Of a stretch of DNA of 64,000 nucleotides, positions 4,136 through 26,792 are shown piece by piece. Each line of letters starts with the position of its first letter. Positions within the stretch are counted from its first letter, which is position 1. Origin of the DNA: Leptolyngbya sp. 'hensonii' (GTDB lineage Bacteria > Cyanobacteriota > Cyanobacteriia > GCF-001939115); contig NZ_MQTZ01000041.1 of assembly GCF_001939115.1 (NCBI RefSeq), positions 186,001-250,000 of the forward strand, in the 5' to 3' direction. Below the pieces are notes generated by a model that was not told the DNA's origin, made no database searches, and saw only the letters and a list, made by a program, of their open reading frames with translations. Made by a program: the position numbers and the translations under genes.

Positions 4136-4732
4136 TCAAGGCTCAGTTTTGCGGATGACCTGGGGCAGGAAAGCAGATAGTTCGCTAACCAACCAATCCT
4201 GCGCTTGCGAGGATAAGGACGCCCCCAGCATATAGTCTCCCTCTCGGGTACGCAGGATGCAGTACCGATCGTGGCTGCGCCGTCCCATAGCCCAGTAGAT
4301 CTCGTCCACTCGGTGCAACTGATCCACCGCAGTCAGGGGAATATGAACCCAGCGTCGCCGCAGAGGAGTAAAGAGTTGCAGATGTAGGGCTTGCGCCTCG
4401 ATCGCAATCTCTCCTACGGCCCACTGAAATCGAAACGTGCCCCCCGGAGCAGGTGGATCGATGTAAAAGGTGGGGCGACTGGTGAGCAGGAATCCCGCAA
4501 TCGCCAGAGAGACAGCCGCGACAACCCAGGGCAGCCACACAGCTCCCGTCCCAATGCTTTCGGTTTGCCAGGCTATTAAGCCCTGGCGAATCAGGAGGGC
4601 ACTCAGTCCGATTGCGAAGGCAGCACCGATCAAGGACAGGGCCATCTCATCAGGCAGGCGGATGCGGATCTGACGATCGCTGTATTTAACCTGAATCCGG
4701 CTGCCCTGGGGGGGTTGATTAAGTTTTTGCAT
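4136..4732 (-). CDS. Two-helix membrane protein with PH-like cytoplasmic part, unknown function
   Basis: This 198-residue protein has a polar N-terminus with a short beta-like segment (about 10-28) and two membrane helices (about 33-50 and 65-85). A C-terminal soluble domain (about 90-198) has alternating beta strands and a terminal helix. The pattern R-W-V-H-I-P-L-T-A-V-D-Q-L followed by I-L-R-T-R-E-G-D-Y resembles bacterial PH-type domains, in which a helical hairpin anchors a small beta-barrel at the membrane. The resemblance is at fold level only, and no substrate or partner can be named. The start codon is an ATG right after a short AT-rich leader. It is divergent from the 4894 gene. Confidence 0.65.
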   Translation of the reverse strand: MQKLNQPPQGSRIQVKYSDRQIRIRLPDEMALSLIGAAFAIGLSALLIRQGLIAWQTESIGTGAVWLPWVVAAVSLAIAGFLLTSRPTFYIDPPAPGGTFRFQWAVGEIAIEAQALHLQLFTPLRRRWVHIPLTAVDQLHRVDEIYWAMGRRSHDRYCILRTREGDYMLGASLSSQAQDWLVSELSAFLPQVIRKTEP

Positions 4733-4893
4733 AGATTGTTGATAGGTTAGTCTGGGAATTCCCCTATGATCATTGCCACCTTAACGCTTCAGAAAGGGAA
4801 CAGGCTGACGATGGCAACGCGCAGGACAGCAAGCATAATAACCTTGCTCCGCTTCTCTGCGAAAAGGGTTTGCTATGATCAGGCTTTTCTGCC

Positions 4894-6057
4894 ATGGGAT
4901 TAGCCCCAATTTATCGATCGATCTCACTTCTCATTGCCCTGGCCATGGCTTTCTGTCTGGTGGTTCAATCCGCCCTGGCCGTGAATCTGACACAGGTGCA
5001 GTCAGGGGGAAACTCGCCTCTGGACTGGCTTAACCTGAACTGGTCGATCGTCGGTCGGGTGGGGGCGATCGGCGAAGACTGGGAATTTGGCATTGGCCCC
5101 AATAACTTCTCTACCCCCAAGCAGACCCTGCAGTGGACCTGGGTAAATGGGGCAGAAGTTCCCTGGAGCTTACAATGGCGCGATCGGACCCTTACCTTCA
5201 GGATTGGCCGTGAGGCAATCTTCTGGAGTCAGACTGCTCCTGTGCCCCTGATCATGGATAGCTTTTACCTGTTGACCCACGTTGAAGGGGCTGCGGGGTA
5301 CGTCAGCCCGGGAACACTCCTGATTGTGGAGGTGAGACAGGTGAATGGGGCGGCTGTCAAACCTGTAGTCAGCCACAGTGGGACCCCAGGCAGAAAACTG
5401 CGGTTGAGCAAGCGGCTATTTACTGCAGATGCTCCGATCTCCTCCCTGGCTGGAACTATTCGACTGAGCTGGCCTGAGGGAGCCCTGAATCCACAGACCC
5501 AAGGAGCCCGGAGTCGCATTTTTCTGAAGATGGAGGGATTTGATACCAGAACTGCCAGACTCCTCTCCCACTCCAATGTTTTGCGTCCTCGAAGTGCCTC
5601 CTCACCGATGGGAGGTCGAACCCAATCAGACCAGCCTCCTGGTCCTGATCGATTGACAAGCCCATCTGATAAAGTACTTTCCCAGAAAACTGACCCTAAA
5701 ACTGGACCCAAATTGGTTCTATCAGGCAAATTGCATCTGCCATATTCGAGATATGACGTGATCCGAGGTCTTATGGCAATGAAACCGATCAACTTTGACA
5801 AAGATACAACCGCCTGGATTTTTCAGGTTTGGGCTTCTTTTATCATTTCCATGGGGGCAATGGGCCTGAGCTTAGCCTGGTTGCCCATGGACAACTGGAT
5901 GAAAGGACAATTAGGGGTCAGCTTTCTGTTTTCCATCAGCTCCAGTTTTACTCTGGCCAAGACCCTGAGAGATAATCAGGAAGCCCACAAACTAACCTCC
6001 CGCATTGATGAAGCGAGAGTTGAAAAACTGCTGGCGGAACACAACTCCCTGAAGTAG
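4894..6057 (+). CDS. Exported domain fused to a C-terminal YiaA/B two-helix domain
   Basis: The protein has 387 residues. A signal peptide (1-29, ending A-L-A) precedes an extracytoplasmic, beta-rich domain of about 180 residues that includes I-S-R-F/I-F-L-K-type strands. A Ser/Pro/Thr-rich linker (about 220-285) follows, then two membrane helices at about 307-350 within a typical YiaA/YiaB two-helix domain: A-W-I-F-Q-V-W-A-S-F-I-I-S, a turn with M-D-N-W, and S-F-T-L-A-K-T-L-R-D. A charged helix ends the protein. YiaA/B-domain proteins are small inner-membrane proteins of unknown function. The exported N-terminal domain makes this one unusual. It lies 22 bases upstream of another membrane protein gene and probably shares its transcript. 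Confidence 0.7.
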   Translation: MGLAPIYRSISLLIALAMAFCLVVQSALAVNLTQVQSGGNSPLDWLNLNWSIVGRVGAIGEDWEFGIGPNNFSTPKQTLQWTWVNGAEVPWSLQWRDRTLTFRIGREAIFWSQTAPVPLIMDSFYLLTHVEGAAGYVSPGTLLIVEVRQVNGAAVKPVVSHSGTPGRKLRLSKRLFTADAPISSLAGTIRLSWPEGALNPQTQGARSRIFLKMEGFDTRTARLLSHSNVLRPRSASSPMGGRTQSDQPPGPDRLTSPSDKVLSQKTDPKTGPKLVLSGKLHLPYSRYDVIRGLMAMKPINFDKDTTAWIFQVWASFIISMGAMGLSLAWLPMDNWMKGQLGVSFLFSISSSFTLAKTLRDNQEAHKLTSRIDEARVEKLLAEHNSLK

Positions 6058-6079
6058 CCAAATTGGATAATTGAGTCTT

Positions 6080-6652
6080 ATGCATAACGATTTTACAGTA
6101 AAACCCAAATGGTCAAGGGCAGATTGGAGGCTCTGGTGGGCCTGGGTGGCGGTCTGCACCCTGGGTGGGATTATTGCCATCCCATCTGGATTCTTCCTGG
6201 CGGTTTCCTTCGGTGACTACGGGCAACGGGGATTTCCCCTGGGATGGGCGTTAGTCTGGACCATCCATGGGTTAGCCCAGTGGCTGGTGCTCTGTCGCAG
6301 GATTTCCGGGTCAGGTTGGTGGATTGTGGCTACCGCGTTCGGGGGGTCACTGGCCTTACCTATATTGATGGTTCTGAACAGTACTTTCTCTAACTGGATG
6401 TCTGGCTCTATGACTCCATTGGTGTTGATGCCCTGTATCGGTGCTGTAGATGGAGCAATCGTGGGGTTGGCCCAGTCTCTTGTCCTCTGGGCTACTGTGC
6501 CCAACGTGCGGGGTGAGTGGATTTTGTCCTCTACGATCGGAGGGTTGACAGTGCTGCCACCCACCAGTGCGATGATTACGGGCATCACCCTGGTAAAACT
6601 ATTCCAGCCGAAATCCCCCGTTCAACATTCGGCTTGCGGGCATGAGCATTGA
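6080..6652 (+). CDS. Polytopic membrane protein with internal repeat, unknown function
   Basis: About 190 residues, nearly all hydrophobic, with four to five predicted membrane helices. Two segments with the pattern G-L-A-Q-W/S-L-V-L followed by a Trp-rich stretch and a small-residue helix recur around residues 70 and 135, suggesting an internal duplication. This repeat pattern is common in cyanobacterial membrane proteins of unknown function. I use the ATG at 6080; a TTG three codons upstream (6071) is possible. The C-terminus has a short C-G-H-E-H tail. It is co-oriented with the YiaA/B protein upstream and the secretion cluster downstream, but has no motif tying it to either. Confidence 0.6.
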   Translation: MHNDFTVKPKWSRADWRLWWAWVAVCTLGGIIAIPSGFFLAVSFGDYGQRGFPLGWALVWTIHGLAQWLVLCRRISGSGWWIVATAFGGSLALPILMVLNSTFSNWMSGSMTPLVLMPCIGAVDGAIVGLAQSLVLWATVPNVRGEWILSSTIGGLTVLPPTSAMITGITLVKLFQPKSPVQHSACGHEH

Positions 6653-6756
6653 TCCTCCATCCGAGGTTTGGCTGAGAGGGTTCCGCCGAATTACGCTCCT
6701 GCTGAGGGCTGTGGCTGTTATTCAATGGCCAAATCAGCTCGCATGGAGTGATTCTT

Positions 6757-7569
6757 ATGGCACATTGGTTGAGCAAGTCGGTTCGACCGAGCAGAAGCGG
6801 AAGGATAGGGGTAACCCTTTGCCTTTTGATGGCATCCCCGATCGTCTTTTCTAATTCCAGTTCTGCAGCCCCACCGCTCCTGGTGGGACAATTTTCCCTA
6901 CCCGCTGGCAGTCCCCTGGACTCAGTTCTGAACAATCTCCTCAATCAAAGTCAGGCTCTCATCCATCAGACCCAACAGCAGGTGAATACCCTGCTGGGTC
7001 CCGTTCAGCAGGATTTGCAGACAGCGCTTCAGGATGCCTTTGGCTCCATGACCCTGGATGTGAATGCTGCCGAGCACAATATCCTTGATGCCATCGAGGC
7101 TGGAACAGTGCCATCTACCACAGGCATTAATCCAGTGCTAGAGCAGCGCACAACCGCAACCAGAGTCCTGACAGCGCATCACAAAACATCAACCCTCTCC
7201 CAGGAAGCCCAGGCGACTGCTAAACAGACGATCGAAACTACCCAGCAGACCCTGGCCCAGGTGCATGACTGTAACGAGCAGGGCAAAGCGGCTCAATCCA
7301 CGCAGGATGCTTTGAAGTCTCTACTGTGTCAGCAATCTGGCATGGCCTCAATGGACGCGACCCTGATTCCATTGCTGCAAAAAACGATCGAAACCAATGT
7401 GGGGATTGAAACCAATCTTAGTCTGCTGAATGACCAGATTAATGGACAGTTCATAGCTGCAGAACAAAGGCGCATGGCGGAAACCAGTCAATCGCAGTTA
7501 ATCCGTTCCAGTTTCAGCAGCCTGCTCTATTCGCCAAAAACTGTCCCAGCAATGCAACTCCAGAAGTAA
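6757..7569 (+). CDS. VirB5/TrbJ-like exported helical protein, first gene of a type IV secretion-like cluster
   Basis: The ATG at 6757 has GGAG nine bases upstream. A GTG three codons earlier is less likely. An N-terminal signal peptide (about residues 12-36) is followed by a 230-residue, almost purely helical region rich in Gln, Leu and Thr with heptad-like spacing. A single pair of cysteines sits about 22 residues apart (D-C-N-E-Q-G and L-L-C-Q-Q-S). This layout matches VirB5/TrbJ minor pilus proteins, which decorate or help assemble type IV secretion pili. Sequence identity to named members is too low to claim by eye, so the assignment rests on architecture and on its place ahead of VirB6-, VirB8-, VirB9- and VirB10-like genes. 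The next gene starts three bases after the stop. Confidence 0.6.
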   Translation: MAHWLSKSVRPSRSGRIGVTLCLLMASPIVFSNSSSAAPPLLVGQFSLPAGSPLDSVLNNLLNQSQALIHQTQQQVNTLLGPVQQDLQTALQDAFGSMTLDVNAAEHNILDAIEAGTVPSTTGINPVLEQRTTATRVLTAHHKTSTLSQEAQATAKQTIETTQQTLAQVHDCNEQGKAAQSTQDALKSLLCQQSGMASMDATLIPLLQKTIETNVGIETNLSLLNDQINGQFIAAEQRRMAETSQSQLIRSSFSSLLYSPKTVPAMQLQK

Positions 7570-7572
7570 CCC

Positions 7573-8721
7573 ATGTCTCTCACCATACGGGGCCTGTTTT
7601 CTCTTCTGGCTGTTGCTCCAGACTCCCGTTTCAATCATGAACTCAGTCAACAGGCCGCAAAAAATGCTGAAGCGATCGATCAGGTCTGGCGGGCCATGCT
7701 CCTGCCTGCCCAGAATGGCGGTCCAGCTTCCGGGAGTCTCTACCATCTCTTGACATCGCTGGGGTTATATCTGGCGGTTGGCACCCTGATTCTCTTTATC
7801 GTGCAGTGGGCTAGAAACCTGATCAACAACGATCTGGAGCGTCCCCTGACCGATCTGATCTGGCCGATCGTCATCATGGCCCTCCTGGCCCACCAAGGGT
7901 ACTTACTGGCCCAAACGACGATCGGAATCCGCTATGCCATCCACTCGGTGAACAATGGTCTGCTGGAGATTTTGGACCAATCCCTCAAGGTCGAAGCCCG
8001 TCTAGCCGATATGTATAACTATCGGACCTTGGAGGAAGCCATTGACGACATTCGACATGAGTGTGATCCGATCGTGTCCGATATGGAAAAACTGAAGGGC
8101 TGTAAGCAGCAATCTGAGATCAAGCTGAATCAGCTCGCTGATGAATTTAACAGTCTCAACCGCAATGGCCAGGAGCACACCTACTACAACGCCGGACAGC
8201 AAAAAATCGCTGCCGCCAGAATAGCCCTGACCCATACCCCTAACCTGGCAGATCCCATCCCCCGTCCCTCCCCCAGAGATCGGGCATTGGAAAAAATCAG
8301 TGCGTCCCTGCTCAACCTGGGCCAAGCGTTCCAGCGCACCCTGGAAAGCTGCATGGTGATCACGGCTATTCTGGGTCCCCTGGCTGTTGGGGCTTCGCTC
8401 ACCCCCTTTGGCACCAAACCCCTGTTTGCTTGGCTCTCTGCATTTCTGGGCCTGGGATTGGCCAAGTTGAGCTACAACCTGTTGGTGGCGATCGCCATCT
8501 CTTCTTTCTACGTTGCCGGGGAGCAAAACTTCCTATTTCAAGACCTGGTCAACGGTGCCCTCAACCCACTGGTGGCCTTTGGGGTGGCTTCGGGGGGCGG
8601 CAAGGCCATCTTCGAGAGCCTGATCTCGGCCAGCCCCGTCTTGAGGCTGAGAAATTACGGCAATGACCTGGTCCCCAATGCTGTATCAGGTCTATCCAAC
8701 TCAAATCCCAGCTCTAAATAA
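7573..8721 (+). CDS. VirB6/TrbL-like polytopic inner membrane protein
   Basis: This 382-residue protein has a short N-terminal region and two membrane helices at about 57-75 and 95-115. A long charged helical loop follows (about 130-255, with two cysteines in E-C-D and G-C-K contexts). A C-terminal membrane cluster (about 265-350) contains Gly/Ala-rich helices such as I-L-G-P-L-A-V-G-A and F-L-G-L-G-L-A-K. This arrangement, a central soluble loop between groups of membrane helices with a glycine-rich pore-like cluster, is what VirB6/TrbL proteins look like. Those proteins form the inner membrane channel of type IV secretion systems. The gene is packed between the VirB5-like and VirB8-like genes with gaps of 3 and 10 bases. 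The assignment is from topology and synteny. Confidence 0.6.
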   Translation: MSLTIRGLFSLLAVAPDSRFNHELSQQAAKNAEAIDQVWRAMLLPAQNGGPASGSLYHLLTSLGLYLAVGTLILFIVQWARNLINNDLERPLTDLIWPIVIMALLAHQGYLLAQTTIGIRYAIHSVNNGLLEILDQSLKVEARLADMYNYRTLEEAIDDIRHECDPIVSDMEKLKGCKQQSEIKLNQLADEFNSLNRNGQEHTYYNAGQQKIAAARIALTHTPNLADPIPRPSPRDRALEKISASLLNLGQAFQRTLESCMVITAILGPLAVGASLTPFGTKPLFAWLSAFLGLGLAKLSYNLLVAIAISSFYVAGEQNFLFQDLVNGALNPLVAFGVASGGGKAIFESLISASPVLRLRNYGNDLVPNAVSGLSNSNPSSK

Positions 8722-18466: not shown

Positions 18467-19804
18467 CTATGGTAACTTGCCCGTACAGGCAGTCAAGAGG
18501 GCTTCTATACCCGCAACCGGGAGAAATGGGGTCTGTAACTGCTGGATCAGTTCTTCCACAGTTCTGTCATCCAGGAAGCGGGTCTCACCCTGCTTCAACA
18601 TTACCGTAGGCAGAAGGACCGCATCACCCAGAGATCGGTTTTGCAGGCCCTGGAGTAAATCGTGCCCCGTGAGCAAGCCCGTGACACTGATCTCCTGGCC
18701 CCAGTAATCGCTCCGGAGTGCCGCCAGATGAACGGTTAACCCCTCCACCTGGTTCAATTGCTGGACGATCGGGGCAAAAGCTTGTTCTACTGCATTGCCC
18801 ACAACCCAGGTCAGCGTTCGGGGAGTCCTCACCCGATCGGGCAGTTGTTGGGCAGCAACGGCAAATTCCTTCAAGAACAGTCGAATCGACCCCACACCAT
18901 TGCCGATCTGAGGATAGGTCTCATAATGCTCCTCTGGGGGCAGATCCCGACCCGCAATCAAAAACCACTCATCGGCCAACCAGGCAAAAGTCGAACCCGT
19001 CTGACGATGAAACTGCGCCTGTAAAGGCTGAACCTGGTCAATCACCTCCTGGGCTTTGGTGGGTGTCACCGGCACCAGCTCATCCGCAGCCGGACGAAAG
19101 CGGGTCAGTCCCACAGGCACCACGGCCACAGAGGCCACCGCTGGCACCTCCCCCTGATGAAATTGGGCCAGGTCCAGCAGGGTGCGATCCAGATGTGCCC
19201 CATCGTTGATCCCCGGACAGACCACCACCTGGGCATGAATCTGCAGACGATGCTGCTGGAACCAGCGTAATTGCTCCAGCACCTGTCCGGCACGGTCATT
19301 CTTCAGGAGGCGACTCCGCACCACCGGTTCTGTGGCATGGACCGACACATAGAGGGGGGATAGGCGCATGGCAGCGATCCGCTCCCACTCCCGTTGGGAT
19401 AGATTAGTCAGGGTCAGGTAACTGCCGTAAAGGAAACTCAACCGGTAGTCATCATCCTTCAGGTAGAGGGTCTGGCGTTTTCCAGGGGGTTGCTGGTCAA
19501 TGAAGCAGAAAGGACAGCGATTATTACACTGAATCAGGCCATCAAACAGAGCCGACTCAAACTCCAGACCCAGATCATCGTCATACTCCTTCTCGATTTC
19601 TACCCGATGGGTTTTGCCCTTTGCATCCAGCACTTCCAGTTCCAATACCTCATCGGCACAGAGAAACTGGTAATCAATCAGGTCGCGAGGATGTTGACCA
19701 TTAATCGATACCAGCCGATCGCCCGGTTCAAACCCAATTTCTTCGGCGATCGAGCCGGACAGGACATGGGTAATCAAAGCAGGCCGAATTGTGGATGTAC
19801 TCAT
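18467..19804 (-). CDS. Cyanobacterial PDZ / radical-SAM-like Fe-S protein (TIGR03279/DUF512 family)
   Basis: The ATG at 19804 gives 445 residues. An N-terminal PDZ domain (about 5-60, with G-F-E-P-G-D-R-L-V-S-I-N-G) precedes a C-N-N-R-C-P-F-C-F-I-D-Q motif near residue 98, a CX3CX2C cluster that binds [4Fe-4S] and S-adenosylmethionine in radical SAM enzymes. A TIM-barrel-like region and a C-terminal DUF512 domain follow. The family is universal in cyanobacteria and plants' relatives are not obvious; its reaction is not established to my knowledge. The frame is open upstream to 19867, but that part overlaps the preceding gene. It lies 19 bases downstream of the receptor-channel gene at 19824 on the same strand, so co-transcription is likely. 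Confidence 0.87.
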   Translation of the reverse strand: MSTSTIRPALITHVLSGSIAEEIGFEPGDRLVSINGQHPRDLIDYQFLCADEVLELEVLDAKGKTHRVEIEKEYDDDLGLEFESALFDGLIQCNNRCPFCFIDQQPPGKRQTLYLKDDDYRLSFLYGSYLTLTNLSQREWERIAAMRLSPLYVSVHATEPVVRSRLLKNDRAGQVLEQLRWFQQHRLQIHAQVVVCPGINDGAHLDRTLLDLAQFHQGEVPAVASVAVVPVGLTRFRPAADELVPVTPTKAQEVIDQVQPLQAQFHRQTGSTFAWLADEWFLIAGRDLPPEEHYETYPQIGNGVGSIRLFLKEFAVAAQQLPDRVRTPRTLTWVVGNAVEQAFAPIVQQLNQVEGLTVHLAALRSDYWGQEISVTGLLTGHDLLQGLQNRSLGDAVLLPTVMLKQGETRFLDDRTVEELIQQLQTPFLPVAGIEALLTACTGKLP

Positions 19805-19823: not shown

Positions 19824-22112
19824 TCATCCAACCAGCCGATCGCTGTAATTGAGGCTGTAGATGGCAATTAATGACATCACAATCAGGGGAAATAGAATGC
19901 GGGCAGAGACATCCAAAGTCCACAGGGCTGCTTTTTTGCCGTCTTTTTCGAGGCCAACCCCAATGACCGTGACCACGACCGGAATCAGGCACAGGAGGAA
20001 ATAGGTATAGAAAACATACTCCAGCGCTACGCTGTAGCTAATTTCAGGCAGTTGATTATTGAACGCCAGAAGTAACACGATACCAGATAGCAGGGTAGAG
20101 GCCGGGGCCATAATTCGGGGTACAAACATACTGTAGGGGAAATACAGAACGCAGTAGCTGATCAGGGTTAACAGCAACAGAGGCAGCAAATTCTTGCTCA
20201 AGAACACTAGGGTTTTCCGCTGCAAGGTCATGCGAACGCTGAATCCAGGATAGTCAATTTGTTGATTTGCCTGGAATAAATCCGGATCGCCCTGAGTCGA
20301 GGTACTGCGAGTGGTGTCTTGAACGTAAGCCATATCCTTAAACTTCCAGAGTTGCAGACCCTGAAAGGGTTTACGCTGAACTGTTTCTGGCTTAGGCAAC
20401 TTTAACCCCTGAACATCAATGACATAAATCAGTCGATCGTTCGAGAGATGGGGATTGTCAAACCGAATCGCCAGTCGCTGAATATCAAAGGGATAGTCCC
20501 GAAAATCGAAGCTATTCTTAAAGTCACCCCGAACCCGGTAGAGACGATAATTCAGACCATTGATCACCTTAGCCTTCAGCGGGGTTTTGGCATCAAAAAT
20601 AGGAGCCGTAGGATTCACACTATTACTGACTGCATCCGGAAATTCAATCTCTGAGGGAACATCATCTCCCTTGTACCGGAACCAAACATAGAAATCTGCC
20701 GAAAAACTCGATTTATTTTGTTCAATCCGACCCAACTTGTTCAAATCAATGCCAGTGTAAACGACCCGTTGCCGCCAGAAGGACTGATCCCCCACCTGGA
20801 CAATATGACCTGCTTTCACCTCACGGGGTAGGTCGAGCTTTTCCGGATTGTTCACCGTTGTGAACTGTTGGGGAGCCGAGATGAGCTGATAGCCGTGGAA
20901 TTGGGCTACCCGGACCGGTTGGTCGCTACTGCGGTTGTCATTGAAATACAGGGGACCTGTGAGGCCGGGCAACGCCACTTTAGGGCTATTGAGGGCAGTC
21001 AGAGCCTGCTGCACCTGTTCTCGATCGCGCTGCAGATCCGAGGCAGTTCCTTTCAGATCGGCTTTACGTAAGGCATCAACCGCTGCGATCGTGGCTTCAT
21101 AAAACTTGGCTCCCAAATAGGACGGGGATTTGCCGTAGGCTCTCTGATAATTGCTGAGAAATTCCTGGGCATCAACACCGGCACTATCAAACAAGATGGG
21201 AGAAGGAACATACATTCCTTCTGTAAAAAAGCCAGGAGTCTTTTTCTCCTCAGCATATTTCTCAAACCGTCTGGCAAAAGATTCCCTGGAGAGGGCCTGC
21301 TCGCCCATCAGCGGTGGGTTAAGGCCCTGTCGTTTGATCGCGACCAGCAACTCCTCAGCCAGATCTTCCTTCGTCAGGGTCAGGAAAAGGATACCTGATT
21401 CGGGATCTGCAGCCAGTTCCTTGACAATCTTTTGAATCGACTGTTTACGCCGGGTTGGTTCTGAATCCAATGCCCAGAGATGCTTGACCGTTCCCTTGCT
21501 ACCCAGAGCTGTTTTCAGCCGCTCCGATTGGCGCTGTTCATTACTGCTGGCTTGGTCATAGATAATGCTGGCCTGTTTCTGTTGCAGCACCTGCTGGGCA
21601 TAGATAGATAAAACATTGGCCAACTTCGAGTTGGTATAGATCATCCGAAAATAGTAAGGCCGATCGGCGGTTACTTTTTCATTGTTTGCCGTGCCTGTAA
21701 TTGCAGCGAGCTGGTTTTCCTGGTAAAGACTACCCGCTTCGATCGAGGCATCGGAAGAACGATGGCCCAACAAGACCAGCGTTGGACTTTTGACAATGTC
21801 CTGGGCCACCTGCTTTGCCCCATCGACAGTCCCTTTGTCATCAAAGGTCAACAGTTTGATTGGATGTCCTTTGATACCGCCATCCCGGTTCACCGCATCG
21901 ACATAAAGTTTCACACTCTGGACAATTTCTTCACCGCCACTGGCCCCTTCCCCGCTCAAGGATGCCGCAACAGCCAGAGGGATGGGTGGGCCACTGGTCG
22001 TTTTGGGTGATCGGGGGAAAAAGGTTGCCAGTAAGACGACAAACAATAAGGCAGCAATAGCAAGAGCTCCATATTTGGCCAGAAGAGGTTTAATAAGGAA
22101 AGGGAACTTCAT
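19824..22112 (-). CDS. Periplasmic binding protein fused to a pentameric ligand-gated ion-channel-like domain
   Basis: This is one continuous 762-residue protein. Residues 14-32 form an N-terminal membrane anchor or signal. Residues 43-410 are a type-I periplasmic binding domain of the branched-chain amino acid/ANF-receptor kind (A-A-S-L-S-G-E-G, R-D-G-G-I-K-G-H-P-I-K-L-L, L-L-G-H-R-S-S-D). Residues 440-630 look like the beta-sandwich ectodomain of Cys-loop-type channels, with A-D-F-Y-V-W-F-R-Y at 472-480 and the loop signature D-F-R-D-Y-P-F-D-I-Q at 536-545. Four membrane helices follow: M1 with its proline (637-657), M2 (664-683, R-I-M-A-P-A-S-T-L-L), M3 (694-718) and M4 (737-757). The plain reading is an ion channel gated by an amino-acid-like ligand bound to the fused receptor. 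Similar fusions have been noted in prokaryotic genomes; ligand and ion selectivity are unknown. Confidence 0.8.
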   Translation of the reverse strand: MKFPFLIKPLLAKYGALAIAALLFVVLLATFFPRSPKTTSGPPIPLAVAASLSGEGASGGEEIVQSVKLYVDAVNRDGGIKGHPIKLLTFDDKGTVDGAKQVAQDIVKSPTLVLLGHRSSDASIEAGSLYQENQLAAITGTANNEKVTADRPYYFRMIYTNSKLANVLSIYAQQVLQQKQASIIYDQASSNEQRQSERLKTALGSKGTVKHLWALDSEPTRRKQSIQKIVKELAADPESGILFLTLTKEDLAEELLVAIKRQGLNPPLMGEQALSRESFARRFEKYAEEKKTPGFFTEGMYVPSPILFDSAGVDAQEFLSNYQRAYGKSPSYLGAKFYEATIAAVDALRKADLKGTASDLQRDREQVQQALTALNSPKVALPGLTGPLYFNDNRSSDQPVRVAQFHGYQLISAPQQFTTVNNPEKLDLPREVKAGHIVQVGDQSFWRQRVVYTGIDLNKLGRIEQNKSSFSADFYVWFRYKGDDVPSEIEFPDAVSNSVNPTAPIFDAKTPLKAKVINGLNYRLYRVRGDFKNSFDFRDYPFDIQRLAIRFDNPHLSNDRLIYVIDVQGLKLPKPETVQRKPFQGLQLWKFKDMAYVQDTTRSTSTQGDPDLFQANQQIDYPGFSVRMTLQRKTLVFLSKNLLPLLLLTLISYCVLYFPYSMFVPRIMAPASTLLSGIVLLLAFNNQLPEISYSVALEYVFYTYFLLCLIPVVVTVIGVGLEKDGKKAALWTLDVSARILFPLIVMSLIAIYSLNYSDRLVG

Positions 22113-22556: not shown

Positions 22557-25500
22557 GTGTTTGACGACCTGACATCCAGCACTATCTTGCTTGTAGACGA
22601 TACACCCTTTAACTTACAAGTTTTGGCCGGAATACTAGGGGAAGCTGGCTTCAAAGTTGCCGTTGCCACAGATGGGGAAAGTGCTATTGCTCAGGCTGAG
22701 TATAGCCCGCCTGATTTAATCTTTCTGGACATTGGCATGCCAGGGTTGGATGGGTTTGCCACCTGCCGTGGGTTAAAAGCCAATCCTGTGACTCAGGATA
22801 TTCCAGTAATTTTCATGACAGCAGTTCTGGAAGATATCAATCGGGTGATCGGGTTCAATTTGGGAGCAGTCGATTATATTACCCAGCCCTTCCAGGCAGA
22901 AGAGGTATTGGCCAGGGTGCGCATCCACTTACAATTCAGGCATCTCACTCAGCAACTAAAGCAACAAAATCAACAATTACAACAGGAAATCCAGGATCGG
23001 AGAGCAATTGAGGCGGATTTGCGCCAGGCAAATAAACAATTGCAAGAGGAAATTTACAATCGCAAGCAAACGACAGAAGCTTTATTACACAGCGAAGAGA
23101 CAAATTGGGCGTTGATTCAAGCCATACCTGATTTCCTGATTCGTATGCGTCGGGATGGCACTTACCTGGAGAGTTGGAACCACGATCGACTAGAGAATGG
23201 TCTTTGCCTGGTGGAGCACGAGCAGATCCTGCCCGGAACCCCAATCAACCAGATTCTGCCCCCGGATTTGTTGGCTCTGCAAATGCATTATGCCCAGGAG
23301 GCTCTCGCCACCCGTCAGGTTCAGACCTATGAGCAACAGGCTGTGGTCGCAGGGGCAATATGCTACGAAGAAGTTCGAATCACCCCCTGTGGTGAAGATG
23401 AAGTGCTGGTGATTGTACGGGACATTACGGCTCGCAAAACCACCGAAATTGCCCTGGCAGAGCGGGAAGCAGAATTTCGGGGTATTTTTTCCCAGGCTGC
23501 CGTGGGAATTGACTACGCCAGTCTGGATGGGCAATTCCTGGCTGTCAATCAGAAATACTGTGAGCTATTGGGTTATACCGATGATGAACTTTTAACTAAA
23601 ACGTTCATTGAACTGACCCATCCCGACGATGTTGAAGCAGACCTGATCGCCTCACGACAACTGATTGCAGGGGAAATTCCCTTTTTTTCCATGGAAAAGA
23701 GGTTGCTGCGCCAAGATGGCTCTTACCTTTGGGTCGATCTCACCGTTTCCCTGATCCGAGGAGCCCATGGCGAACCCAAATACCTGATGGCGATCGTGCA
23801 GGATATTCATCAACGGAAACAAGCTGAAGAAACACTCCAGAGCCTGGTTGAAGGAGCTGCAGCAGTAACGGGAGAAAACTTCTTGCCTGTGATGACGGAG
23901 TACCTGCAAAAGTCCCTGGGCATCCGCCATGTGGTGATCGCAAAGCGTCAGACAGCGGAGGAGCAAGCCTATAGTGTGTGGCTGGATGGTCAGTTGCAGC
24001 CGGATTTATCTGGCTCTCTGGAAAATTCCCCCTGTGATGTTGTGATCCGAGAGGGACTGTATTGCTGCCCTAGCGAGGTCCAGCAACGCTTCCCAGACTA
24101 TCCATTTCTGACTCGTCTGAATGCCGAATCCTGCCTAGGGATTGCCCTCACAAATAACCAGGGCGAGATCATGGGTAGTCTCTGCATTTTCGATGATCAG
24201 CCTCTGACACAGCCGCAAAAGGCGATCGGCATGTTACTCGTGTTCGCAGCCCGGGCCAGTGCCGAGTTGGAGCGGCAGGCTGCCCTGGATGCCTTACATC
24301 AGTTGAACCAGGAACTGGAAAGTAGGGTAGAGGAGCGCACGGTTGAACTGCAACGGGCCAATCTTCACCTGCAGCAAGAAATGGCTGAACGGCAGAAGCT
24401 GGTGGCTCTGGTGGAGAATAGCTCAGATTTCATAGCCATTATCACGCTGGATGGCCAGTTGACCTACCTGAATCCGGCGGGACGGCAACTGGTGGGATTG
24501 GATAACACCACTGCCCTGAGTTCCCTGATGCTTTTGGACTTTCATTTCCCGGAAAATTGGGCCGCAATTCAGCACAAAATGCAATTGTTGAGCCAGGGAG
24601 AAGTCTGTCAGGAAGAAATTCAGCTCCGCCATTTTCGAACTGGGCAGGCTATTCCCAGCCAATGCAGTGCTTTTGCAATCAAACAGGCCCAGACCGGAGA
24701 GGTTGTGGCTTTCGCTGCTATCTTACGGGATATTACCGATCGTAAGCTGGCAGAAGCCGCCTTAGAAGAGTCGCAGCGGATGTTGCGGCTGGTGCTGGAT
24801 ACGATTCCGCAACGTATTTTCTGGAAAAACCGTCAGTCCCAATATCTGGGCTGTAACCAGATCTGCGCTCTGGATGCAGGGTTAACCTCACCAGAACAGA
24901 TTATAGGCAAAACTGATTTTGAACTGGCCTGGAAAGCCTCTGCGGCAGATTACCAGGTCGATGATCAATTGGTGATGGAATTGAATCAGGCTAAACTCCA
25001 CTTTGAAGAGGGGCAACAGCTTGAAGATGGCTCTTACCGCTGGTTACGCACCAGTAAAATCCCCCTCCATAATCCCAGAGGTGAGGTGATCGGAGTTCTG
25101 GGAGCTTACGAGGATATCAGCGATCGCAAGCAGGCTGAAACAGTGATCCAAGAAAGTGAAGCCCGCTATCGCCGGATCGTAGAAACTGCCGGAGAAGGAA
25201 TCTGGGTTGTGGATGCCCATGATTACACAACTTTTGTGAATGAAAAAATGGCCCAAATGCTCGGCCTCCTACCCGAACAAATGTTGGGGCGGAATCTGTT
25301 CGACTTTATGGACCTGGATGCCCAACAGTTGGCAGAGCGATATCTGGCAGTTCATCGCCAGGGAATGAAGGAACAGTATGATTTCAGATTCAAGCGGGCC
25401 GATGGCTCTGATCTTTGGGCCATTGTGGCAGCCACTCCGATTCTGGATGAAGAGGGGCACTATATTGGGGGCCTGAGAATGGTGACCGATATCAGCGATC

Positions 25501-26792
25501 GCAAACGGGCTGAAGCCCAACTCCGGCGGGTGAATGAACAACTGATTCTGGCCAATGCGGACTTAGCCCAGGCAACCCGGCTCAAGGATGAGTTCCTCGC
25601 CAATATGAGCCATGAGTTACGAACCCCCTTGAATGCCATTTTGGGCATGTCCGAAGGCTTGCAGGACAGGGTTTTGGGGAATCTGAATGAGCGGCAGTTG
25701 AAGGCCCTCAGCACGATCGAGAACAGTGGCAGACATTTGCTGGATTTGATCAACGATATTCTTGACTTGGCCAAAATTGAATCTGGCAAGCTGGAATTAC
25801 AGATAGCTGCTACCTCGGTGCAAAATCTGTGCCAGTCCAGCTTGAGCTTTGTCCGACAAATTGCCCTCAAAAAAAGTATCCATCTGGATATCTCCATTCC
25901 CACTGAGATCGGCCCGATCATGGTGGATGAACGCCGCATCCGTCAGGTTCTGATTAATTTGTTGAGTAATGCGGTCAAATTCACCCCGGATAGCGGCAGA
26001 GTGACCCTGCGGGTCAAATTGGAGGTTGGGATGGATCGGGACAGCGAGACCAACCGATCCCATTTATCCCCCGCAATAGCCCCCGCTTCTTTGCTGGCCT
26101 TTGAGGTGGAAGATACGGGCATTGGCATTGCGTCAGAAGATATGCCCAAATTATTTCGCTCCTTTGTTCAGATCGACAGCAGTCTGAACCGGCAGTACAG
26201 TGGTACAGGGCTGGGGCTGGCCCTGGTTAAACACCTGGTTGAATTACATCATGGTACCGTCCAAGTTAGGAGTACCGTGGGTCAGGGTAGTTGTTTTACC
26301 ATTACCTTGCCGTATCAGAATGCAGCTCAAGCAAAGCAGACATCAACGGCCCCCCCTAATGTGCCCCAGGGAAGAGAACAAGGTGCTCAAAATTCTGAGC
26401 AGATCTCGATGAGGGCTGGGTCTGCCCAACCTCTGATTCTGTTGGCAGAAGATAATGCTGCCAATGTAGAGACCCTCTCTATTTATCTGACCAATTGGGG
26501 ATATGAGTTGATGATCGCAAGGACAGGCCGGGAAGCCGTTGCTCTAGCTGCAGCCCATCGACCGGACATTATTCTCATGGATATTCAAATGCCTGAAATG
26601 AATGGGCTGGAAGCGATCCGCCAGATTCGCACCATACCAGAACTGCTTCGAGTTCCGATTATTGCGTTAACGGCACTGGTAATGCCCGGCGATCAGGAGA
26701 AGTGTTTTCAAGTGGGGGCCAATGAATATTTGTCCAAGCCCGTCAGCCTTAAACATCTGGCAAATACGATCTGTCAATTGTTAAATACCTGA
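22557..26792 (+). CDS. Hybrid histidine kinase: receiver, five PAS, GAF, HisKA/HATPase, receiver
   Basis: The GTG start has AGGAGG ten bases upstream. Domains in order: receiver (9-125, phospho-acceptor D58), coiled coil (128-180), PAS (180-295), PAS (305-420, N-x-x-Y-C-E-L-L-G-Y), GAF-like (425-572), coiled coil, PAS (610-730), PAS (738-860), PAS (868-985), HisKA (1005-1075, H1019 in S-H-E-L-R-T-P), HATPase (about 1110-1260, with D-T-G-I-G-I and G-T-G-L-G-L-A-L) and a C-terminal receiver (about 1295-1410, L-M-D-I-Q-M-P). There is no membrane helix, so it is a cytoplasmic multi-sensor kinase. In the first receiver the usual K-P is Q110-P111, which may weaken its phosphorylation switch. The final receiver looks intact. 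Ligands of the PAS and GAF domains cannot be told. Confidence 0.92.
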   Translation: MFDDLTSSTILLVDDTPFNLQVLAGILGEAGFKVAVATDGESAIAQAEYSPPDLIFLDIGMPGLDGFATCRGLKANPVTQDIPVIFMTAVLEDINRVIGFNLGAVDYITQPFQAEEVLARVRIHLQFRHLTQQLKQQNQQLQQEIQDRRAIEADLRQANKQLQEEIYNRKQTTEALLHSEETNWALIQAIPDFLIRMRRDGTYLESWNHDRLENGLCLVEHEQILPGTPINQILPPDLLALQMHYAQEALATRQVQTYEQQAVVAGAICYEEVRITPCGEDEVLVIVRDITARKTTEIALAEREAEFRGIFSQAAVGIDYASLDGQFLAVNQKYCELLGYTDDELLTKTFIELTHPDDVEADLIASRQLIAGEIPFFSMEKRLLRQDGSYLWVDLTVSLIRGAHGEPKYLMAIVQDIHQRKQAEETLQSLVEGAAAVTGENFLPVMTEYLQKSLGIRHVVIAKRQTAEEQAYSVWLDGQLQPDLSGSLENSPCDVVIREGLYCCPSEVQQRFPDYPFLTRLNAESCLGIALTNNQGEIMGSLCIFDDQPLTQPQKAIGMLLVFAARASAELERQAALDALHQLNQELESRVEERTVELQRANLHLQQEMAERQKLVALVENSSDFIAIITLDGQLTYLNPAGRQLVGLDNTTALSSLMLLDFHFPENWAAIQHKMQLLSQGEVCQEEIQLRHFRTGQAIPSQCSAFAIKQAQTGEVVAFAAILRDITDRKLAEAALEESQRMLRLVLDTIPQRIFWKNRQSQYLGCNQICALDAGLTSPEQIIGKTDFELAWKASAADYQVDDQLVMELNQAKLHFEEGQQLEDGSYRWLRTSKIPLHNPRGEVIGVLGAYEDISDRKQAETVIQESEARYRRIVETAGEGIWVVDAHDYTTFVNEKMAQMLGLLPEQMLGRNLFDFMDLDAQQLAERYLAVHRQGMKEQYDFRFKRADGSDLWAIVAATPILDEEGHYIGGLRMVTDISDRKRAEAQLRRVNEQLILANADLAQATRLKDEFLANMSHELRTPLNAILGMSEGLQDRVLGNLNERQLKALSTIENSGRHLLDLINDILDLAKIESGKLELQIAATSVQNLCQSSLSFVRQIALKKSIHLDISIPTEIGPIMVDERRIRQVLINLLSNAVKFTPDSGRVTLRVKLEVGMDRDSETNRSHLSPAIAPASLLAFEVEDTGIGIASEDMPKLFRSFVQIDSSLNRQYSGTGLGLALVKHLVELHHGTVQVRSTVGQGSCFTITLPYQNAAQAKQTSTAPPNVPQGREQGAQNSEQISMRAGSAQPLILLAEDNAANVETLSIYLTNWGYELMIARTGREAVALAAAHRPDIILMDIQMPEMNGLEAIRQIRTIPELLRVPIIALTALVMPGDQEKCFQVGANEYLSKPVSLKHLANTICQLLNT

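Follow-up and report, generated by a model that had tools for sequence, protein, structure and literature searches.

We propose that the gene at positions 19824 to 22112 of the window, by which we mean the whole 64,000-nucleotide stretch of Leptolyngbya sp. 'hensonii' DNA that was analysed, probably encodes a subunit of a prokaryotic pentameric ligand-gated ion channel (pLGIC) that carries a type-I periplasmic binding protein (PBP) domain as its outermost sensor. An earlier reading of the letters, referred to here as the sequence-only reading, had placed both modules in one frame, and this was borne out by Pfam, phmmer, a channel-only profile and Foldseek. Its count of exactly four membrane helices agreed with the four C-terminal helices of our model, but passed over a fifth hydrophobic segment at residues 14–32 or thereabouts. 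The features are as follows.

19824 to 22112, minus strand: whole gene, PBP-I–pLGIC fusion; open frame with an ATG start, 762 amino acids
22017 to 22073, minus strand: hydrophobic N-terminal segment, residues 14–32, a putative signal peptide or uncleaved anchor (sequence; model helix at 7–29)
20898 to 21989, minus strand: type-I periplasmic binding domain of the LIVBP type, residues 42–405 (Pfam, PDB, Foldseek)
21237 to 21269, minus strand: insert of about 10 residues, at about residues 282–292, a candidate coupling element (landmark spacing, fused versus free PBPs)
20223 to 20780, minus strand: pLGIC ectodomain, a beta sandwich, residues 445–630 (PDB pLGIC profile match; Foldseek with the channel-only model)
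20478 to 20507, minus strand: Pro-loop signature DFRDYPFDIQ, residues 536–545 (sequence; aligned with DFRxxPFDxQ of pLGICs)
20130 to 20213, minus strand: M1 with P644, residues 634–661 (model helix; profile alignment)
20058 to 20120, minus strand: M2 pore helix, residues 665–685 (gapless register against GABA-A chains; model helix)
19944 to 20033, minus strand: M3, residues 694–723 (model helix; profile alignment)
19848 to 19934, minus strand: M4, residues 727–755 (model helix; profile alignment)
18467 to 19804, minus strand: downstream gene, PDZ plus radical SAM plus DUF512, TIGR03279 (Pfam, NCBIfam)

For the channel part Pfam gave too little signal, and profiles were used instead. Neur_chan_memb matched at E 0.042 with 14.5 bits, below its gathering score of 28.1; a related 1255-residue fusion (L081) also fell under this cut-off, and the NCBIfam models LIC (4e-8) and LGIC_1 (2e-7) were both under their curated cut-offs. 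With the single sequence, phmmer matched an ELIC/GABA-A chimera at 2.2e-8. A channel-only profile made from four sequences matched 250 distinct PDB sequences at E values up to 0.001, and all 60 of those listed were pLGICs or pLGIC chimeras; GABA-A alpha-5 was matched at 3.2e-14 and GLIC at 3.4e-10, the latter match spanning the later ectodomain and the whole transmembrane domain (TMD). AlphaFold models, made as monomers from 15–16 sequences and taken as weak support only, had a mean pLDDT of 61 at full length and 50 for the channel alone. When the channel-only model (pLDDT only 50) was submitted to Foldseek, 50 of the 50 matches listed were pLGICs (best E 3.6e-7), among them GLIC, DeCLIC, sTeLIC, GABA-A and glycine receptors, and GluCl. 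The hallmarks of the family were present: the D-x-x-x-[FY]-P-F-D Pro-loop, in which P541, F542 and D543 were invariant in all 15 aligned sequences, four transmembrane helices, and a hydrophobic residue (L675) at 9'. The DFRDYPFDIQ signature and the M1 proline named by the sequence-only reading were located in the ectodomain at residues 536–545 and at P644. By the profile matches and Foldseek, then, residues 440–762 belong to a relative of pLGICs and not to an unrelated fold, and homology of the channel part to pLGICs over both ectodomain and TMD is well supported.

Full-length relatives with the same layout were found in Pseudanabaena and Leptolyngbyaceae at 64–71% identity, and in Desulfatirhabdium at 29% identity. 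Between Pseudanabaena copies, dN/dS was 0.02–0.12 in the PBP, the ectodomain and the TMD taken separately, indicating that all three modules are maintained. A chance frame was excluded by the full-length orthologues (17 related loci) together with these ratios. The wider supposition, that we are dealing with a chance frame or a misread fold unrelated to pLGICs, could appeal to the Pfam Neur_chan models being under their cut-offs; we consider it vanishingly improbable, as the profile matches already refute it and the phmmer and Foldseek matches, the orthologues and the dN/dS values all stand against it. In one copy, from the metagenome-assembled genome (MAG) Pseudanabaena ULC068bin1 (L015:7959-10255), the frame was broken, by sequencing error or because it is a pseudogene.

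In a gapless HMM alignment with GABA-A chains, M2 was read as V at −2', P at −1' (P665), R at 0' (R666), M at 2' (M668), S at 6' (S672), L at 9' (L675), V at 13' (V679) and L at 16' (L682). With this register and the L9' gate found, the description of M2 as a plausible pore in the sequence-only reading was right. GLIC has a glutamate at −2' and ELIC has one at −1'; the window protein has neither, nor any other acid from −2' to 2', and it has an arginine at 0'. Anion channels likewise lack the acid and keep a basic 0' residue (PMC549065). Since the acidic filter is absent and an arginine stands at 0', we infer that the window pore is more likely to be anion-permeable or weakly selective than to be a cation channel. 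In the sister PBP clades L071-L073 and L070 there is a glutamate near 2', a position given only approximately because loop lengths differ and leave their M2 register uncertain by one or two residues; with that glutamate, ion selectivity within the PBP-pLGIC family may differ. In the window M2, position 4' is an unusual proline and the upper half is hydrophobic throughout, features that would suit a receptor that does not conduct, its pLGIC part serving to anchor and oligomerise a sensor with partner proteins as its targets. We think such a role unlikely, given that M2 keeps its register and its L9' gate, M1 its proline and the ectodomain its Pro-loop, that strong purifying selection acts on the TMD, and that the window protein has no cytoplasmic output domain.

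The binding domain was matched by Peripla_BP_6 over residues 42–405 with E 9.8e-30. By sequence the nearest solved PBPs were PDB 4mlc and 3hut, and by fold 3hut (Foldseek 2.5e-19) and LivJ-type proteins. In LIVBP and LBP, S79, T102 and E/D226 are presumably the contacts that hold an alpha-amino acid, E/D226 holding its ammonium group. The equivalent of S79 is kept as S120, which was invariant in the 15-sequence alignment; in the window clade, N143 stands at the T102 position and Q272 probably at the E/D226 position, as read from the alignment register. T and D occupy those two positions in most cyanobacterial PBPs of the free kind and in several sister fusions. Because Q272 would replace the ammonium-binding acid, a plain alpha-amino acid would be the less likely ligand, and an ordinary amino acid appears doubtful. 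The suggestion of an amino-acid-like receptor in the sequence-only reading thus keeps its serine, S120, but is weakened by N143 and Q272. The predictions of both ligand and selectivity depend on alignment register and on these LIVBP contacts. LIVBP/LivJ-type proteins (PDB 3hut, 4mlc, 1z15) and Atu2422 (3ip5) have the fold and the cleft serine in common with the window PBP, which differs from them in being fused to a channel, in N143 and Q272, and in an insert of about 10 residues.

This insert was recognised from the distance between a GEQ-type strand and a GFFT[DNE]G strand, which was 28–31 residues in 30 fused sequences and 20–24 in free PBPs; in this comparison L088, listed as free, is a fused gene in a shortened copy, and L002 was misaligned. 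It is common to the fused PBPs examined, is absent from the free ones, and is new here. We regard the insert, near residues 282–292, as the best candidate for a contact between PBP and channel.

From these features we propose the following mechanism. Five copies would assemble into a homopentamer, a stoichiometry suggested by a genome search in which the window genome gave one pLGIC match only. Lobe closure of the PBP, which is established for this fold, would capture a small solute in the periplasm, and the movement would pass to the ectodomain, perhaps through the insert of channel-fused PBPs. The ectodomain would then act through the Pro-loop and the M2-M3 region on the L9' gate, a route established for pLGICs, the motif for which is present in the window protein. 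The open pore would pass anions or be weakly selective, and the output would probably be a change in membrane potential or an entry of ions that signals a nutrient or metabolite.

Tasneem et al. (PMC549065) proposed a different part for the PBP, in which it delivers ligand to the channel. In that case the PBP would concentrate or hand over a ligand that then binds at the usual pLGIC site between ectodomains, and the desulfobacterial L020 loci, which encode channel-less PBP-I plus SBP_bac_5 proteins beside the fusions, could be taken in its favour. We give ligand delivery a modest chance: a permanent fusion, and an insert found only in fused PBPs, fit direct mechanical coupling better, and the presence of the cassette on an unrelated family of pores suggests that the unit of PBP plus ectodomain carries the signal.

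The unrelated pore is that of MscS. A PBP-I and a pLGIC-type ectodomain precede an MscS pore in L105:2379-5924 (+), in L117:3851-7222 (+) and in a frame of L118 that starts from 3503, the MscS part of which was recognised in the sequence by eye; the L105 and L117 proteins end in a cyclic-nucleotide-binding domain. These fusions come from one Desulfatirhabdium MAG and from Azospirillum plasmids, and among 395 desulfobacterial genomes that MAG was the only one with an MscS fusion. One record, on a complete Azospirillum plasmid, is annotated as 'ABC transporter substrate-binding protein'; the same layout on that plasmid makes an assembly chimera unlikely as the source of the MAG fusion. No published description of this architecture was found in the literature searched. 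The ectodomains of the MscS fusions nested inside the PBP-pLGIC clade with a support of 100, and they have lost the Pro-loop signature, reading for example VFDQRPPYGSQ against DFRDYPFDIQ in the window protein. In pLGICs the Pro-loop is coupled to the TMD; that it has been lost where the pore is foreign and retained here supports real Pro-loop coupling in the window protein. We tentatively propose that the PBP with its insert and the pLGIC-type ectodomain may form a self-contained sensor cassette, which would gate allosterically from the PBP cleft and would have been passed between unrelated pores (the pLGIC TMD and MscS), the window clade then being an anion-permeable receptor for a ligand other than an ordinary amino acid. 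A further elaboration was seen in three cyanobacterial PBP-I-pLGIC proteins of 1183–1255 amino acids that carry a C-terminal PBP-II (SBP_bac_1) after M4, assigned by Pfam in two of them and by sequence and length in the third; they are encoded by two tandem genes at L070:900-4463 and 4550-8101 (-), and by a gene at L081:10155-13922 (+).

Of 386 sampled cyanobacterial genomes, 54 had a pLGIC match, and long PBP-I fusions occurred in 7 of these 54, the window genome included. The other cyanobacterial pLGICs were plain, of about 330–450 amino acids, or were dCache fusions with apparent extra transmembrane segments; in the latter (L074-L079, L082-L084, L095, L101), which form a well-supported clade of their own, the extra segments appear to separate the Cache domain from the ectodomain. 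In the channel tree the 22 PBP-fused rows, from cyanobacteria and desulfobacteria alike, all fell on one side of a branch with an SH-aLRT support of 95, and the dCache fusions fell on a separate branch with a support of 100. The PBP tree set fused apart from free PBPs with a weak support of 72; both trees were quick ones, and several rows had long branches. The cyanobacterial and desulfobacterial fusions thus form one clade, which is new here. As both trees group the PBP-fused rows, the data fit a single fusion event, the product of which would have been inherited whole, through deep descent or through transfer between phyla. A viral origin was rejected, no relative having been found in viral contigs. 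The L020 genome (G403), from one Desulfatirhabdium MAG, held six PBP-type pLGIC-ectodomain genes, two tandem pairs among them, and double binding proteins of PBP-I and SBP_bac_5 without a channel adjoin these receptor genes.

Downstream of the fusion gene in Pseudanabaena come a dCache_3-HAMP gene and then a plain pLGIC gene, an arrangement that is intact in L005, L006, L008 and L018. The cassette lies at L005:10482-12933, with equivalents in L006, L008, L018 and L080, and its dCache_3-HAMP protein has no output domain; in L080 the dCache gene is split by about 1 kb. Such an order would be expected if the fusion were one subunit of a heteropentamer formed with the plain pLGIC. We consider this quite improbable for the window protein, since in L009 and L011 both partners are reduced to remnants while the fusion is intact, the plain partner lies far from the fusion in the channel tree, and the window genome gave no match to the dCache_3-HAMP or the plain pLGIC partner, an empty answer that we count as weak evidence.

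The sequence-only reading had the channel gene share a transcript with the PDZ/Fe-S gene downstream. On the same strand, the TIGR03279/DUF512 gene begins 19 nt beyond the stop codon of the channel gene if its start is the ATG at 19804, and this spacing and orientation make co-transcription plausible; the pairing itself is not conserved, however. No TIGR03279/DUF512 homologue was present near any of the orthologue loci fetched, so a conserved operon with the radical-SAM/DUF512 gene was rejected, and the adjacency is uninformative on function. Promoter-like sites at the channel gene were no more frequent than in shuffled sequences; terminator-like sites numbered 10 against 4.7 expected, mostly inside the gene. 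On the other side, at 22557 to 26792 on the plus strand and divergent from the channel gene, is a gene for a large hybrid sensor histidine kinase of 1411 amino acids. A hybrid kinase is likewise encoded next to the L020 receptors, and this shared neighbourhood may be coincidence.

Ionotropic glutamate receptors also join a type-I PBP to a ligand-gated channel, but they are tetrameric, with an unrelated pore and a PBP-II gating domain, and the likeness to the window protein is one of layout only. GLIC of Gloeobacter and ELIC of Dickeya/Erwinia share with it a homologous ectodomain and TMD, the Pro-loop and the M2 gate; neither has a PBP. The closest known systems by domain order are the PBP-I-pLGIC fusions of the alphaproteobacteria Bradyrhizobium japonicum and Magnetospirillum magnetotacticum (Tasneem et al. 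2004, PMC549065), in which an N-terminal type-I PBP, a pLGIC ectodomain and four transmembrane helices follow one another as they do here; the statement in the sequence-only reading that such fusions had been described in a few prokaryotes was therefore accurate. The window host differs in being a cyanobacterium, and the cyanobacterial members listed in that paper were simple pLGICs. DeCLIC of Desulfofustis (PMC9897478), one of the top Foldseek matches, is a pLGIC that likewise has an additional sensor region at its N-terminus; that region is made up of two jelly-roll lobes, which bind calcium (PMC12664993), in contrast to the PBP of the window protein. Jaiteh et al. (PMC4795631) noted that such domain associations had been seen at the genome level only, and no functional study of any PBP-I-pLGIC was found in the literature searched, a search with most subscription journals outside its scope.

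The domain combination has thus been known since 2004, and the window protein is a cyanobacterial case of it with specific testable features. What is new here is the one clade, the insert of fused PBPs, the acid-free filter (V−2' P−1' R0') and the glutamine at the position of the ammonium-binding acid. To our knowledge, few prokaryotic pLGICs have a known native ligand or role, and a PBP covalently attached to a channel offers a handle on the ligand, as this domain can be produced by itself and put through ligand screens. Direct mutational tests can be aimed at the insert, at the acid-free filter and at the substitutions in the PBP cleft. If the PBP does gate the pore, a nutrient-binding protein would drive an ion current by a route unlike that of the glutamate receptors, and the protein is a candidate for how a bacterium converts a chemical signal directly to an ion current.
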